Source: Cellulophaga sp. BC115SP (lineage in GTDB: Bacteria; Bacteroidota; Bacteroidia; Cytophagales; Spirosomataceae). Taken from it: a stretch of DNA of 64,000 nt. The stretch spans positions 248,001-312,000 of the forward strand of contig NZ_JAAALB010000001.1 in assembly GCF_009905545.1 (NCBI RefSeq). The letters run 5' to 3'. Position 1 is the stretch's first letter; the number at the start of each line of letters is the position of its first letter. The notes beneath the pieces were generated by a model. That model made no database searches, had not been told where the DNA came from, and worked only from the letters and a program-made list of their open reading frames with translations. Positions 17,421 to 32,660 of this stretch are shown here, one piece after another. The position numbers were made by a program, and so were the translations under genes.

Positions 17421-17528
17421 TTCGGATATTGGATGTTGGATTTCGGAAGTGTAATCTACCTTTTTATTTGTAGAAAATAAATGTATTTTTCTTTATTTCC
17501 GAAATCAGAAATCCCAAATCTGCAATAG
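17421..17528. repeat. Intergenic inverted repeat of GGATTTCGGA type, copy A
   Basis: The left arm (17421-17447, TTCGGATATTGGATG then TTGGATTTCGGA) and the right arm (17498-17528, TCCGAAATCAGAAATCCC then AAATCTGCAATAG) are imperfect inverse complements about 50 bases apart. Closely similar sequence occurs at 28508-28697 and 48119-48262, each time after the 3' end of a transcription unit. This looks like a dispersed non-coding element. Apart from this element and the terminator at 17591-17631, the gap 17364-17717 shows nothing further. Confidence 0.65.
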
Positions 17529-26736: not shown

Positions 26737-27615
26737 CTATTGACAATCTTTCAATTTACGTTCTACAAAGTCCTGCTTTTTTTCATCATAAATAAAACAA
26801 TGTTGCTCAAGTTTTACCATTTTGTTATTTGCTACTTTGTACAAAGTCGAGGTATATTGTGATCCCGCACAGCATTGGTTTACTTCGGTAATTCTTTTGG
26901 TTTTAGCATCAAATGTCAGTGAAACACCTTCAAAACCACTGTCTTTGTATTGTCCGTTTCCATCAACCAAAAAATATTTTGAAGAGGTATTTGCTCCAGC
27001 ATAAGATGATTCAAACAAAGATATATCAGCTTGACCATCAAAATTAAAATCGCCCGTTTCTACGCTGTTAAAGCCCATTGGTTGACAATCTACCGCAATG
27101 GTTTGGAGCAATTTATCAGTCTTTTTTTCGTAAACTTTTAACGCTTTTACGCGTGCTTGATAATCATCTTTAGCTTTACTTAACACTATTTTAAAATATT
27201 GATTACCAGAAGTGGCTTTTTGTAATAATTCACGATTACTCCAAGCTACCCCTTCTCCATCATCAAGGTCGTATTTTTTTGTTAGTGTTATTTTAAAACT
27301 TTTTGTACCAGCAGGGTTCGTCCAAGTGCCTGATAATTGAGTAGCCTGAGCTGAAAACTTATCAATTACCATTTTACCCGTAACTTTTTCCTTGGCATCC
27401 TTTTCGAGAATAGAAAGCATTTTATTCTTGATAGAACCAGAAATATCGATTGGCTCATCGTTGCTGGTATAAACATAAATGCCTTGAATTTCGTCGTCAG
27501 AATAAATATTCAAAACCAACTCGATAGGATATTTGTCAATTGTACCTGTATAGACAGACTGAGCATAAGTTGCGCTACACCAAAGAGTACTTAATAGTAG
27601 TAATAGTTTTTTCAT
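26737..27615 (-). CDS. Exported protein with XAC2610-like repeat region
   Basis: From the ATG at 27615 the protein has 292 residues and a signal peptide (LLLLLSTLWCSATYAQ). The N-terminal half (YTGTIDKYPIELVLNI, LSGTWTNPAGTKSF) is beta-rich. The C-terminal half (QPMGFNSVETGDFNFDGQAD...YFLVDGNGQY) resembles XAC2610-related domains, which contain an FG-GAP-like calcium-binding loop (DFNFDGQAD). The function is unknown. It is 34 bases after a lipoprotein gene that also has an FG-GAP-like loop, so the two probably form an operon. Confidence 0.7.
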   Translation of the reverse strand: MKKLLLLLSTLWCSATYAQSVYTGTIDKYPIELVLNIYSDDEIQGIYVYTSNDEPIDISGSIKNKMLSILEKDAKEKVTGKMVIDKFSAQATQLSGTWTNPAGTKSFKITLTKKYDLDDGEGVAWSNRELLQKATSGNQYFKIVLSKAKDDYQARVKALKVYEKKTDKLLQTIAVDCQPMGFNSVETGDFNFDGQADISLFESSYAGANTSSKYFLVDGNGQYKDSGFEGVSLTFDAKTKRITEVNQCCAGSQYTSTLYKVANNKMVKLEQHCFIYDEKKQDFVERKLKDCQ

Positions 27616-27649
27616 AATAAATGGATCTTCATAGAGTTTATTCAAAAAA

Positions 27650-28453
27650 TCAATCTACACCAGCCGTAAATCCACCAGCAATTGTTACACCTTGTGTTCC
27701 TTTAGCGATTTTTGAAAGATATAAGGTGCTGTTGATATCATTGTAATACGTTGCAGCATCTAATACTAAATCCAATATACCATCGCCATCAATATCTCCT
27801 GCAAACTGAACTGTAGCGATTTTAGAATCAAAACGTGGCTGGCGAAGCAAGACATTAGTATAGTTTTTACCTTCTTTTGTAAACGAAATAGAGAGTGTAT
27901 AATCAGTCACTAAAATCTGATTAGGATCGTCTTTGGAAATTTCTTTTTTACCAACAGCAAATAGTTTGTATTTCACCCCCAAATACTCAAACTCAATGGC
28001 ATCATTGGGATAAAACTCTGTTTTGGATAAAGTCAATGGCGCAATGACATGGTCTTTCAAATAAGACTGCGATTCAATCAATAACAAACAAGTATCTTTT
28101 TGTGCAATATTGATTTGAATACCAGTTTTAGCATCAGGTTTCTCGTCAATCATTTCATCATGAACCATTTCTAAGGAAATACCCGTTGTTTTTAGTTCAA
28201 AGCCTTTCTCGGTTTGAAAAATTCCTACCCAAGATTTTTTATCTGAGTCTAAAGGTACTTGCCCTTCGTGGAATGTTCCGGGCATCTGAACGGTAATTTG
28301 ATAGTCTGTTTCTTTAGGAAACATGTTTGTAGAATCAACCTTTACTTGTGCTAATGTGGAGTCTGTTGTGGTTTGTTGTTCTTGTGATTTTTGCTTGCAA
28401 GAGGCCATAGCAAGCAGGCCTAGCAAGGCGCTAGTCTTCAAAAGTGTGTGCAT
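27650..28453 (-). CDS. Lipoprotein with FG-GAP-like calcium loop, function unknown
   Basis: The 267-residue protein has a lipoprotein signal (LLGLLAMASC, Cys at residue 19) followed by a Gln/Thr/Ser-rich linker. The body is beta-rich without a family I recognise. Near the C-terminus is FAGDIDGDGILDLVLDAATYY, a typical FG-GAP/integrin-like calcium-binding loop. It is first in a likely two-gene unit with the exported protein downstream. Both are probably periplasmic or on the outer membrane. Confidence 0.75.
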   Translation of the reverse strand: MHTLLKTSALLGLLAMASCKQKSQEQQTTTDSTLAQVKVDSTNMFPKETDYQITVQMPGTFHEGQVPLDSDKKSWVGIFQTEKGFELKTTGISLEMVHDEMIDEKPDAKTGIQINIAQKDTCLLLIESQSYLKDHVIAPLTLSKTEFYPNDAIEFEYLGVKYKLFAVGKKEISKDDPNQILVTDYTLSISFTKEGKNYTNVLLRQPRFDSKIATVQFAGDIDGDGILDLVLDAATYYNDINSTLYLSKIAKGTQGVTIAGGFTAGVD

Positions 28454-28507: not shown

Positions 28508-28697
28508 GATTGCGGATTTCAGATTTTTGATTTCGGAGTTTGTGGGGGTAATTTTCTATATCAAAGACAAACGCAAATATGGCGTCTCTTCAGTTGATTG
28601 GCTATGTTAATCTTGTAGTTTATGAAGAATTATAAAAACTATTTATTTCGGATATCAGATATTGGATCTCCGAAATCAGAAATCCAACATCTGAAAT
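28508..28697. repeat. Intergenic inverted repeat of GGATTTCGGA type, copy B
   Basis: 28508-28538 (GATTGCGGATTTCAG then ATTTTTGATTTCGGAG) and 28647-28697 (TTTCGGATATCAGATATTGG then ATCTCCGAAATCAG and AAATCCAACATCTGAAA) carry the same motifs as copies A and C. The second part is itself an imperfect inverted repeat. It lies after the 3' end of the pyruvate carboxylase gene and before the lipoprotein gene, and fills most of the gap 28454-28799. Confidence 0.65.
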
Positions 28698-28744
28698 GGC
28701 TCGAAATCCTGCGTGCACAACTAACACTAATTCAGTCACTCAAT

Positions 28745-28782
28745 AAAAAAATCCCCCAAGGCAAGCCAAGGAGGATTTTTTT
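28745..28782 (-). terminator. Terminator of the pyruvate carboxylase gene
   Basis: AAAAAAATCC (28745-28754) and GGATTTTTTT (28773-28782) pair perfectly around an 18-base loop that has an inner GGC/GCC stem. On the minus strand the structure ends in a T-run. It is 18 bases beyond the stop codon. Confidence 0.85.
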
Positions 28783-28799
28783 ATAGTGTTTGATATTTC

Positions 28800-31700
28800 T
28801 TATTGATTCAAGAAATCACCTGAAGTAATTTGCGCCAAACCATCCAAAGGACGATTGTACAAATATCCATAAGTTGCGTAGTTGGTACCATCTACCTCAA
28901 CTTGGATATCCTTACGCAAGAATACAGATTCTGATTCATTTTCTGGATAAAACTCTTCGTATTCATCCAAAATTTTCACCAAACGAAGCGGGTTTGTCAA
29001 TTTGTATAACTCACCAACAACTTTGTCAGATGCATCATCAGAAGGAACAATACCAGGGTATTCTCCGATGTTGAACATCTTTCCTTGGTAATTAGCCAAA
29101 CCGATAAACTCAGAATTACGAGCAATCAATTTATGCAATTCGTTACCGTATCCTTTACGTAATGTTCCGTATACGAATAAGAATTCTTCTTTGTTTGGCT
29201 CAGGAAGTTTTGCCTCCTCTACCGACAATACTAAGTCTTCTTGTTCAACTACGGTACCTTCGTTAAGTACAATACGAGAAACTACACCTTCGAATGGAGA
29301 CGATACGATCGATTCCATTTTCATGGCCTCGATAACATACAATGGAGCGTTTTTCTTTACTTCATCGCCTGGTTTCACCAAGATTCGGCTCAAACGACCT
29401 TGTAATGGCGCACCGATATCTCCTTTGGCAGAAGCTTTAGCGTGCTGAGGACGTTCAATTTTGATATTTCTATCTAGAATTTTGATACGACGAGCCTGAC
29501 CATTCAATTCGAAAGTAACAGTACGCAAACCTGATTCGTCTGGTTCTGAAGCATACAAGTATTTCACAATAATAGTTTTACCTTCGTCGATTGTGATTAA
29601 GATTTCTTCATCTTGCTTCAAGCCATAGAAGAATGCAGTCGTAGGAAGAGCTGATACATCGCCGTAATTTTGTTGAGCTTTGTAATAGTCTTCATATACT
29701 TTCGGATACATCTTATAAGAAAGATAATCCAAGAAACCTTCTTGATTTTCTGGGAACTTAGCTTGGAAATCAGCAAAATCCTTATCAAAATCAATTGGCG
29801 TAATATTATCGTTTGGACGACCTGTAATGGCAAGATCTCCTTTCAAGATAATTTCCTGTAATTGCTTAGGGAAACCACCATAAGGCTGACCAAGACCACC
29901 TTTGAAGAAGTCTTTTACAGATTCAGGGAAAGAAAGTGTAGCGCCACGAGCATATACATCCTCAGCAGTTAAGCTATTGGCAGTCATAAAGATAGCCATG
30001 TCTCCTACTACTTTTGAAGATGGTGTTACTTTTACGATGTCACCAAACAATTTGTTTGCCTCCACGTAGTTGCGCTTCATCAATTCAAATTTATCACCCA
30101 CACCCAAGGCAATCGCCTGACCACGCAAGTTGGTGTACTGACCGCCAGGGATTTCGTTGTCATAAACCTCAGCAGTACCTGCTTTCAATTCAGATTCGAA
30201 TGGATAATAGATTTGACGAATATCTTCCCAATAGTTAGAATATTGGTTCAATAAGCCTAAGTTCAACGGAAAATCACGCTCGTTGCCTTGCATCATTGCT
30301 ACCACTGAGTTGAAGTTTGGTTGAGCAGTCAAACCAGACATTGCACCTAATGAACAGTCAACTACATCGACACCTGCTTCAATAGCTTTCAAGTACGTAG
30401 CCGCTTGAATTGATGCTGTATCGTGTGTATGCAAGTGTACAGGAATAGAAAGCGCCTTTTTCAACTCCGTAACCAAAGTTTGAGCTTGGTATGGTCTTAA
30501 CAAACCAGCCATATCTTTGATACAAAGCATGTGAGCACCTTCGTCTTCCAACTGACGAGCCATGTCTAAGTAATACTGAAGTGTATATTTTTCGTTGTTG
30601 AAAATATCACCTGTATAACAAATAGAAGCTTCTGCGATAGAGTTGGTACGCTCACGAACGGCACGAATCGAAACTTTCATAGCCTCTACCCAGTTCAATG
30701 AGTCGAAGATACGAAACACGTCGATACCGTTTTCAGCAGATTTTTCTACAAATTTCTCAATCAAGTTGTCAGGATATGCTGAGTAACCAACGGCATTGGA
30801 GCCACGGAACAGCATCTGCAACAACATATTTGGCATAGCCTCACGGAAAGCCTGTAAGCGTTTCCAAGGCGATTCGTTCAAGAAACGCATCGATACGTCG
30901 AAGGTTGCACCACCCCATACTTCCATTGAGAATAGTTCTGGGAAGCTTTTGGCAAAACCTTCAGCCACAGCCAACATATCACGGGTACGAACACGAGTAG
31001 CCAAAAGCGACTGGTGACCATCACGGAAAGTGGTATCTGTATAAAGGATTTGTTTTTGATCTTTTACCCATTGTGCAAACTTGTCGGCACCCATCGAATC
31101 CAAACGTTGCTTATTACCCATTGGATATTCAGCATATTTGTCAAATGCAGGAACTACTGGCGTACGGAAAGTACGTTCGTTTTTCACTTTTACATCTGGG
31201 TTACCATTTACTACTACATCTCCTAAATAACGAAGAGCTTTTGTAGAACGGTCACGAGTCGGCGTAAAATTGAAAAGCTCAGGATGTGAGTCAATAAATT
31301 GTACCACACATTTTCCTTGTTGGAAAATAGGGTGCTGAATCACATTACGTAAGAATGGAATATTGGTTTTTACCCCACGAATACGGAATTCGGTAAGAGC
31401 ACGCAACAAACGTTCAGAAGCGCCTTTCAAGGTACGACCTTTAGCCGAAACCTTTACGAGCATTGAATCGAAGTAAGGAGAAATTTTAACCCCTGGATAC
31501 GACGAACCTTCATCCAAACGAATACCAAAACCAGCTGCATTGCGATATGCAATGATGGTACCAAAGTCAGGTTTGAAACCATTGGCAGGGTCTTCGGTCG
31601 TGATACGACACTGAATAGCATAACCTCTCAATGGAATATCCTCTTGGCGAAGGATATAAATATTCGGGTCAGAAAGGCGGTAGTTTTGAGCAATCAAAAT

Positions 31701-32660
31701 TTGGGTACGCACAATGTCGATACCTGTTACCTCTTCTGTAATAGTATGTTCTACCTGAACGCGTGGGTTTACTTCGATAAAGTAGATATTCTCGTCTTTA
31801 TCTACCAAGAACTCAACCGTACCAGCGTTGTAATAATTTACGGCTTTACCAATCGATAAGGCGTATTTGTACAACTTTTGTTTGGTTTCATCTTTCAAAC
31901 CCACAGAAGGTGCTACTTCTACTACCTTTTGGAAACGACGTTGTACCGAACAATCGCGCTCATAAAGGTGTACTAAGTTGCCATGTTGGTCACCCAACAA
32001 CTGCACCTCAATATGTTTTGGTTGGTCGATGAACTTCTCAATAAAGATCGTATCATCACCAAACGCATTTTTCGCTTCGTTTTTCGCTTCAGCGAAAGCT
32101 TTTTCTAAAGCTTCCTCTTCACGTACTACACGCATACCACGACCGCCACCACCGGCCGCAGCTTTTACCATTACAGGAAAACCAATACGACGAGCCTCTC
32201 TAAGTGCAATATCATACGATACTAGCTCCTCTTTCGAGTCTTCAATCATTGGTACTTCAGCCTTACGAGCAGCATCTTTGGCAGCTACCTTATCGCCCAA
32301 AGCATTCATTGCTTCTGGAGAAGGACCAACAAATTTGATTCCTTCTTCACGACAACGACGAGCCAATGTTACGTTTTCAGAAAGAAATCCATAACCTGGA
32401 TGAATAGCGTCTATTTCTTTCTCCTTACATAACTTTATTAACCCCTCGATATCGAGATATGGTTTTAAAGGTTCGTCGTCCTTACCAATTTGATAAGCCT
32501 CATCCGCTTTGTATCTGTGAAGCGAATAACGATCTTCAAATGTGTAAACGGCAACCGTTCGGATACCTAACTCAGAGGCAGCACGCATAATACGGATAGC
32601 AATCTCACCACGGTTGGCGACAAGTAAGCTATTAATCGTTTGAACGTATGGTTGTGGCAT
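28800..32660 (-). CDS. pyc: Pyruvate carboxylase fused to a C-terminal gamma-glutamylcyclotransferase-like domain
   Basis: The 1286-residue protein carries all parts of single-chain pyruvate carboxylase: biotin carboxylase (about 10-460; ATP-grasp loop KAAAGGGGRGM, FIEVNPRVQVEH), carboxyltransferase (YTDTTFRDGHQSLLATRVRT, then the HMGL-like barrel), the linker domain, and a biotinyl domain with EAMKMES (Lys about 1114). The enzyme makes oxaloacetate from pyruvate and bicarbonate using ATP. Usual length is near 1150, and the biotinyl domain ends at about residue 1148. In the same frame follow about 131 residues (1156-1286) with FVYGTLRKGY, VGELYKL and LDEYEEF, the marks of the GGCT/AIG2 family. 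The Glu of LDEYE (about 1235) matches the known catalytic Glu. No stop or internal start with a clear leader separates the parts. It is monocistronic, with its own terminator. Confidence 0.93.
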   Translation of the reverse strand: MPQPYVQTINSLLVANRGEIAIRIMRAASELGIRTVAVYTFEDRYSLHRYKADEAYQIGKDDEPLKPYLDIEGLIKLCKEKEIDAIHPGYGFLSENVTLARRCREEGIKFVGPSPEAMNALGDKVAAKDAARKAEVPMIEDSKEELVSYDIALREARRIGFPVMVKAAAGGGGRGMRVVREEEALEKAFAEAKNEAKNAFGDDTIFIEKFIDQPKHIEVQLLGDQHGNLVHLYERDCSVQRRFQKVVEVAPSVGLKDETKQKLYKYALSIGKAVNYYNAGTVEFLVDKDENIYFIEVNPRVQVEHTITEEVTGIDIVRTQILIAQNYRLSDPNIYILRQEDIPLRGYAIQCRITTEDPANGFKPDFGTIIAYRNAAGFGIRLDEGSSYPGVKISPYFDSMLVKVSAKGRTLKGASERLLRALTEFRIRGVKTNIPFLRNVIQHPIFQQGKCVVQFIDSHPELFNFTPTRDRSTKALRYLGDVVVNGNPDVKVKNERTFRTPVVPAFDKYAEYPMGNKQRLDSMGADKFAQWVKDQKQILYTDTTFRDGHQSLLATRVRTRDMLAVAEGFAKSFPELFSMEVWGGATFDVSMRFLNESPWKRLQAFREAMPNMLLQMLFRGSNAVGYSAYPDNLIEKFVEKSAENGIDVFRIFDSLNWVEAMKVSIRAVRERTNSIAEASICYTGDIFNNEKYTLQYYLDMARQLEDEGAHMLCIKDMAGLLRPYQAQTLVTELKKALSIPVHLHTHDTASIQAATYLKAIEAGVDVVDCSLGAMSGLTAQPNFNSVVAMMQGNERDFPLNLGLLNQYSNYWEDIRQIYYPFESELKAGTAEVYDNEIPGGQYTNLRGQAIALGVGDKFELMKRNYVEANKLFGDIVKVTPSSKVVGDMAIFMTANSLTAEDVYARGATLSFPESVKDFFKGGLGQPYGGFPKQLQEIILKGDLAITGRPNDNITPIDFDKDFADFQAKFPENQEGFLDYLSYKMYPKVYEDYYKAQQNYGDVSALPTTAFFYGLKQDEEILITIDEGKTIIVKYLYASEPDESGLRTVTFELNGQARRIKILDRNIKIERPQHAKASAKGDIGAPLQGRLSRILVKPGDEVKKNAPLYVIEAMKMESIVSSPFEGVVSRIVLNEGTVVEQEDLVLSVEEAKLPEPNKEEFLFVYGTLRKGYGNELHKLIARNSEFIGLANYQGKMFNIGEYPGIVPSDDASDKVVGELYKLTNPLRLVKILDEYEEFYPENESESVFLRKDIQVEVDGTNYATYGYLYNRPLDGLAQITSGDFLNQ

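Follow-up and report, generated by a model that had tools for sequence, protein, structure and literature searches.

A pyruvate carboxylase with a C-terminal GGACT/AIG2-like domain in the Flectobacillus group

The fused gene and its surroundings

The window analysed here, a stretch of 64,000 nucleotides from contig NZ_JAAALB010000001.1 (Cellulophaga sp. BC115SP), carries a gene in which the reading frame of a pyruvate carboxylase (PC) runs on into a domain of the AIG2-like gamma-glutamyl cyclotransferase type (GGACT; Table 1). The frame contains neither a stop nor a frameshift in its 1286 codons, and this includes the region near base 29200, where the first-pass annotation had considered that an interruption might be found. 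The PC part contains the biotin carboxylase, carboxyltransferase, PYC_OADA and biotinyl domains of Pfam, matches the NCBIfam PC equivalog PRK12999 over residues 7-1148 (1696.5 bits against a cut-off of 965) and TIGR01235 (1625 bits), and bears the biotinylation motif EAMKM with Lys 1114 as the biotinyl lysine. The alignment with full-length solved PCs ends at about residue 1144-1150; the last biotinyl residue is at about 1148 (base 29217), which leaves 138 more residues before the end of the chain. The long tail behind the biotinyl domain that had been read from the letters was thus borne out, with coordinates correct to within a few residues. The extra C-terminal domain is an addition and no ground for excluding the protein from the PC family.

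Table 1. Features of the pyc-ggact locus, in coordinates of the window
Feature	Residues	Coordinates	Strand	Basis or remark
Fused gene pyc-ggact	1286 aa, about 145 kDa	28800..32660	-	Open frame with PRK12999 and PF06094 matches
PC part	1-1148	29217..32660	-	Pfam and NCBIfam domains; alignment to solved PCs
Linker EAKLPEPNKE	1149-1158	29187..29216	-	Alignment
GGACT (AIG2-like gamma-glutamyl cyclotransferase) domain	1159-1286	28803..29186	-	PF06094 match; profile matches to solved structures
Substrate-binding motif YGTL (mouse Tyr7-Gly8-Thr9-Leu10)	1164-1167	29160..29171	-	Profile alignment
Catalytic glutamate E1235 (mouse Glu82)	1235	28956..28958	-	Alignment
F1247, at the mouse Tyr88 position	1247	28920..28922	-	Alignment
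Intrinsic terminator		28744-28784	-	Directly 3' of the stop codon; fold -20.7 kcal/mol, z -4.45

The tail begins at about residue 1159-1161 (base ~29186) and matches PF06094 (GGACT) over residues 1161-1284, covering profile positions 1-119 of 120 with 69.5 bits against a cut-off of 22.8 (E 5e-19). The motifs by which the first-pass annotation had recognised it, FVYGTLRKG (residues 1162-1170), VGELYKL and LDEYE (residues 1231-1235), are all present. That identification of the domain stands; the name gamma-glutamylcyclotransferase is better replaced by GGACT/AIG2-like, that is, the gamma-glutamylamine cyclotransferase family. Profile matches of the tail to the solved structures YtfP (1xhs), YkqA (2qik), A2LD1 (1vkb/2kl2) and human AIG2-like protein (3jub) are consistent with a GGCT-type fold, which we infer for this domain; an AlphaFold2 model of the biotinyl domain with the tail, built from just 5 sequences, reached a pLDDT of 36.9. 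In the linker, LPEP is identical in all 22 aligned fused sequences. The source organism belongs to Flectobacillus; the closest named record, Flectobacillus longus LYT7W, has a tail that is 99% identical.

The terminator hairpin was matched in stability by none of 200 shuffles, and since so strong a hairpin lies directly behind the stop codon, transcription probably ends after the tail. Two adjacent genes follow directly downstream of pyc (26737-28453, minus strand), one weakly matching DUF6705 and the other without a Pfam match; among the loci compared, this pair is common only to the near relative G066. The intergenic element between pyc and the next gene (28509-28697) has 30-nt inverted arms, 80% complementary, a second copy of the arm being found at 17498-17526 with 3 mismatches in 29; it resembles a small palindromic repeat dispersed through the source genome.

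The catalytic site of mouse GGACT is formed by Tyr7, Gly8, Thr9, Leu10, Ile50, Glu82, Tyr88, Tyr115 and Tyr143 (PMC2954230). A profile alignment to the solved mouse protein placed positions 7-10, Glu82 and Tyr88 on the tail, while Ile50, Tyr115 and Tyr143 found no certain counterpart. The YGTL motif is invariant in the fused sequences, and the position of E1235 is occupied by Glu in 40/40 fused and stand-alone sequences, in which Y1164, G1165, L1167, R1249 and Y1266 are likewise invariant; the catalytic Glu that had been attributed to the tail is thus confirmed as E1235, aligned with Glu82. At the Tyr88 position a clade-specific pocket change is seen: all 22 fused copies have Phe where 17 of the 18 stand-alone ones have Tyr. 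This replacement is conservative and lowers the claim of an exact gamma-glutamylamine cyclotransferase, not that of membership in the family; since Phe is present in every fused copy, a shift in substrate or in rate is possible. Among the solved bacterial relatives YtfP and YkqA score best, and neither has Glu at the aligned catalytic position. Therefore cyclotransferase activity is not required of every member of the family, and in this respect the tail is closer to the proven eukaryotic enzyme. Automatic transfer of the label 'cyclotransferase' to or from YtfP and YkqA is unsafe.

Distribution and origin of the fusion

In order to see how far the architecture extends, 200 genomes of the taxonomic family of the source were searched with a profile (A1) built from fused tails. 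A fused, in-frame tail was found in 50 of them, in 8 genera (E <= 5e-50), sharply apart from the stand-alone GGACTs (E >= 1e-32). The length of about 1286 residues is shared by close relatives, as 45 of the matches lie in full-length frames of 1280-1341 aa and the other 5 in frames cut by a contig end. No stop occurs inside any of the 50 tail matches, and no split form was seen across the 8 fused genera. The single exception within these genera, G161 (89% complete), has no tail match; there a contig end cuts pyc off at residue 396. The supposition that such a fusion is unusual holds up, and its extent goes beyond what had been supposed, to one clade of 50 genomes in 8 genera; the idea that close relatives might always keep two separate genes is contradicted by fused relatives with the same frame. 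An assembly or sequencing artefact, or a frameshift, is ruled out by the identity of junction and frame in these genomes, some of which carry the gene on contigs of megabase size; its probability is vanishingly small.

Outside the family, no GGACT was found in a frame of PC size among 390 genomes of the order, 395 of the phylum and 395 of the class (overlapping sets), the longest frame being 441 aa; matches in the class search were those listed at E <= 1e-20, so that a separate fusion event involving a distant GGACT could escape there. In G513, G518 and G834, which belong to other Bacteroidota, the frames that carry a GGACT domain measure 441 and 285 aa and possibly represent other fusions. 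On the basis of kinship, the fused clade would correspond to the NCBI family Flectobacillaceae, which comprises Flectobacillus, Arcicella, Pseudarcicella, Aquirufa and Sandaracinomonas.

In the other genera of the family, GGACT has a gene of its own away from pyc (129-189 aa among the copies extracted), or pyc is absent. The stand-alone gene is nearly universal in the family, usually with one copy per genome; the fused genomes checked, the source genome included, gave a single GGACT match each, so no stand-alone copy is left in them. All fused sequences form one clade both in a tree of the GGACT domain (40 sequences, support 97/97) and in one of the PC body (37 sequences, support 100/100), in which the PCs of g20 and g33 come closest among the non-fused ones (100/99). 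Multiple independent fusions are not supported by this topology. Given one fused clade in both trees and no second GGACT in the fused genomes, the stand-alone gene would have moved onto pyc once.

As to the manner of this event, the stand-alone ggact does not lie beside pyc in the non-fused genomes examined, and in G020, where both lie on one contig, 1.6 Mb separate them; an origin by read-through from an adjacent ggact is therefore not supported. Its neighbours are ispG-like, queE-like and MmcQ-like genes in g19, g21, g22 and g27 (named by eye from translations) and a histidine kinase with a response regulator in g20/g33, and most fused genes adjoin a divergent pdxA. The distance of the stand-alone gene and these different neighbourhoods point to a move of ggact onto pyc rather than to simple read-through.

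Selection on the tail and its possible function

Pairwise Nei-Gojobori estimates, taken from pairs with unsaturated dS, gave a dN/dS of 0-0.13 for the tail against 0.01-0.04 for the PC body, and the tail diverges much faster than the body. When pairs of equal PC divergence are compared, which are not independent of one another, fused GGACTs resemble each other more than stand-alone ones do (50% against 41% identity at 80-84% PC body identity, and 55% against 38% at 84-88%), and thus the fusion did not relax the domain. Co-adaptation of the PC body in the fused clade was considered and rejected, since only 10 clade-specific fixed changes were found, one of them in the biotinyl domain, with no clustering near the junction. 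The conservation of LPEP exceeds what a passive tether would be predicted to need.

We consider it probable, from sequence comparison, that the protein is a bifunctional, tethered enzyme made of a PC and an active cyclotransferase, and that ggact moved only once onto pyc. In the ancestor of the Flectobacillus group, as phylogeny and distribution suggest, the only GGACT gene of the cell would have been transferred to the 3' end of pyc and joined in frame behind the biotinyl domain through a linker of ~10 residues. The PC part, judged by its family membership, would work as an ordinary single-chain pyruvate carboxylase. In the tail, the YGTL loop and neighbouring residues would bind the substrate, a gamma-glutamyl amine or dipeptide, whose cyclisation to 5-oxoproline, with release of the amine or amino acid, would be catalysed by E1235. 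Because the catalytic residues are conserved and the domain is under purifying selection, we infer that the tail is still an active cyclotransferase; it may take on the clearing function that the stand-alone enzyme has in the sister genera. The join would then serve mainly for co-expression and tethering, not for metabolic channelling, and should the protein assemble as a tetramer like other PCs, each PC tetramer would carry four cyclotransferases. In biotinyl domains the chain termini lie opposite the biotin lysine, and for this reason a C-terminal load need not block catalysis.

A regulatory or sensory role of the tail, by which binding or turnover of a gamma-glutamyl ligand would affect the tetramer or the way the biotin carrier swings, thereby tuning oxaloacetate supply to nitrogen status, seems to us unlikely but worth weighing. 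Only a short linker separates the tail from the mobile biotinyl domain, the tail is under somewhat stronger constraint than the stand-alone copies, and no split form was seen in the 8 genera; the invariant LPEP and the change to Phe are the facts that would fit such tuning best. However, the other alignable catalytic residues are kept, the substitutions of the fused clade are not clustered in the biotinyl domain, and the rate of divergence is much higher than that of the body. In its more specific form, a GGACT acting as a ligand-responsive module on the swinging biotin domain, through which carboxylation would respond to how much of a gamma-glutamyl metabolite is present, the proposal is rather doubtful, and to our knowledge such gamma-glutamyl control of anaplerosis is known from no PC. 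The change at the Tyr88 position, together with the many family members that lack known activity, could also be read as the sign of a structural remnant that has lost catalysis and is preserved for the sake of PC folding or stability; this is a very improbable reading, as E1235 and YGTL are retained, dN/dS is low, and the tail is the sole GGACT of genomes whose relatives nearly all keep one. Nor do we give much weight to two independent proteins arising by a post-translational cut or by an internal translation start for the tail, which is improbable in view of the conserved linker, the absence of stops within the tail matches and, in the window protein, the lack of any Met codon between AMKM of the biotinyl domain and FVYGTL.

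The first-pass annotation had further suggested that the tail couples oxaloacetate supply to glutamate/5-oxoproline or glutathione metabolism. A fusion that joins anaplerosis to glutathione breakdown and to recycling of 5-oxoproline to glutamate would suit the source genome, which encodes gamma-glutamyl transpeptidase (GGT), glutamate-cysteine ligase and a 1273-aa candidate 5-oxoprolinase of the OPLAH type. Gamma-glutamyl transpeptidase is present in 12/12 genomes tested, fused and non-fused. Glutamate-cysteine ligase (GCS2), in contrast, was found in the fused genomes G000, G001 and G036 and not in the fused genomes G005, G012, G030 and G126; a candidate 5-oxoprolinase, of either PxpA or OPLAH type, was found in G000, G001, G005, G036 and G126, and neither PxpA nor the OPLAH type (hydantoinase-B) in the fused genomes G012 and G030. 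The fusion with E1235 is nevertheless retained in G012 and G030, both 99% complete, and in G005 and G126. Since both functions are missing there, glutathione synthesis and 5-oxoproline recycling by the enzymes searched for are not a fixed partner of the fusion. Furthermore, 13 of the 29 non-fused genomes checked have no PC (no PYC_OADA carboxylase) and yet have GGACT, which argues for an older GGACT role independent of PC. The suggested coupling is left unsupported by these two observations, and there is only a slim chance that it accounts for the fusion.

Relation to known proteins and meaning

Few multi-domain enzymes have been studied as thoroughly as pyruvate carboxylase, and every full-length solved PC structure that we found ends at the biotinyl domain. 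The single-chain PCs 3bg5, 3ho8, 4qsh, 5vyw, 2qf7 and 7wta share with residues 1-1148 of the fused protein the full PC domain order and the length over residues 7-1148, and end at or just behind the biotinyl domain, whereas the fused protein continues into the linker and the GGACT tail. Human and mouse gamma-glutamylamine cyclotransferase (A2LD1; 3jub, 1vkb, 2kl2) have YGTL and the catalytic Glu in common with the tail, which differs from them by its junction to PC, by Phe at the Tyr88 position and by a distant sequence (E about 1e-7, mixed profile). The stand-alone GGACTs of sister genera (e.g. g20, g27, g33) show the same motifs at 27-43% identity to the tail, and are encoded by separate genes elsewhere in the genome, in other neighbourhoods. 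Viral relatives of the tail were not confirmed in IMG/VR, and no published fusion of PC with GGCT or GGACT was found in the open-access literature; an automatic annotation of the architecture may well exist in public databases. Both halves belong to known families, and their combination is a new PC domain architecture.

A stable, predicted catalytic domain is thus carried on the mobile biotinyl domain, is kept group-wide and represents the only GGACT of these cells. The fusion offers a natural experiment on the load that a PC tolerates and on the role of bacterial GGACT/AIG2-like proteins. In addition, it may have protected PC against loss: PC is always present in the fused clade and missing from 13 of the 29 non-fused relatives sampled, a comparison that involves one fused clade only.
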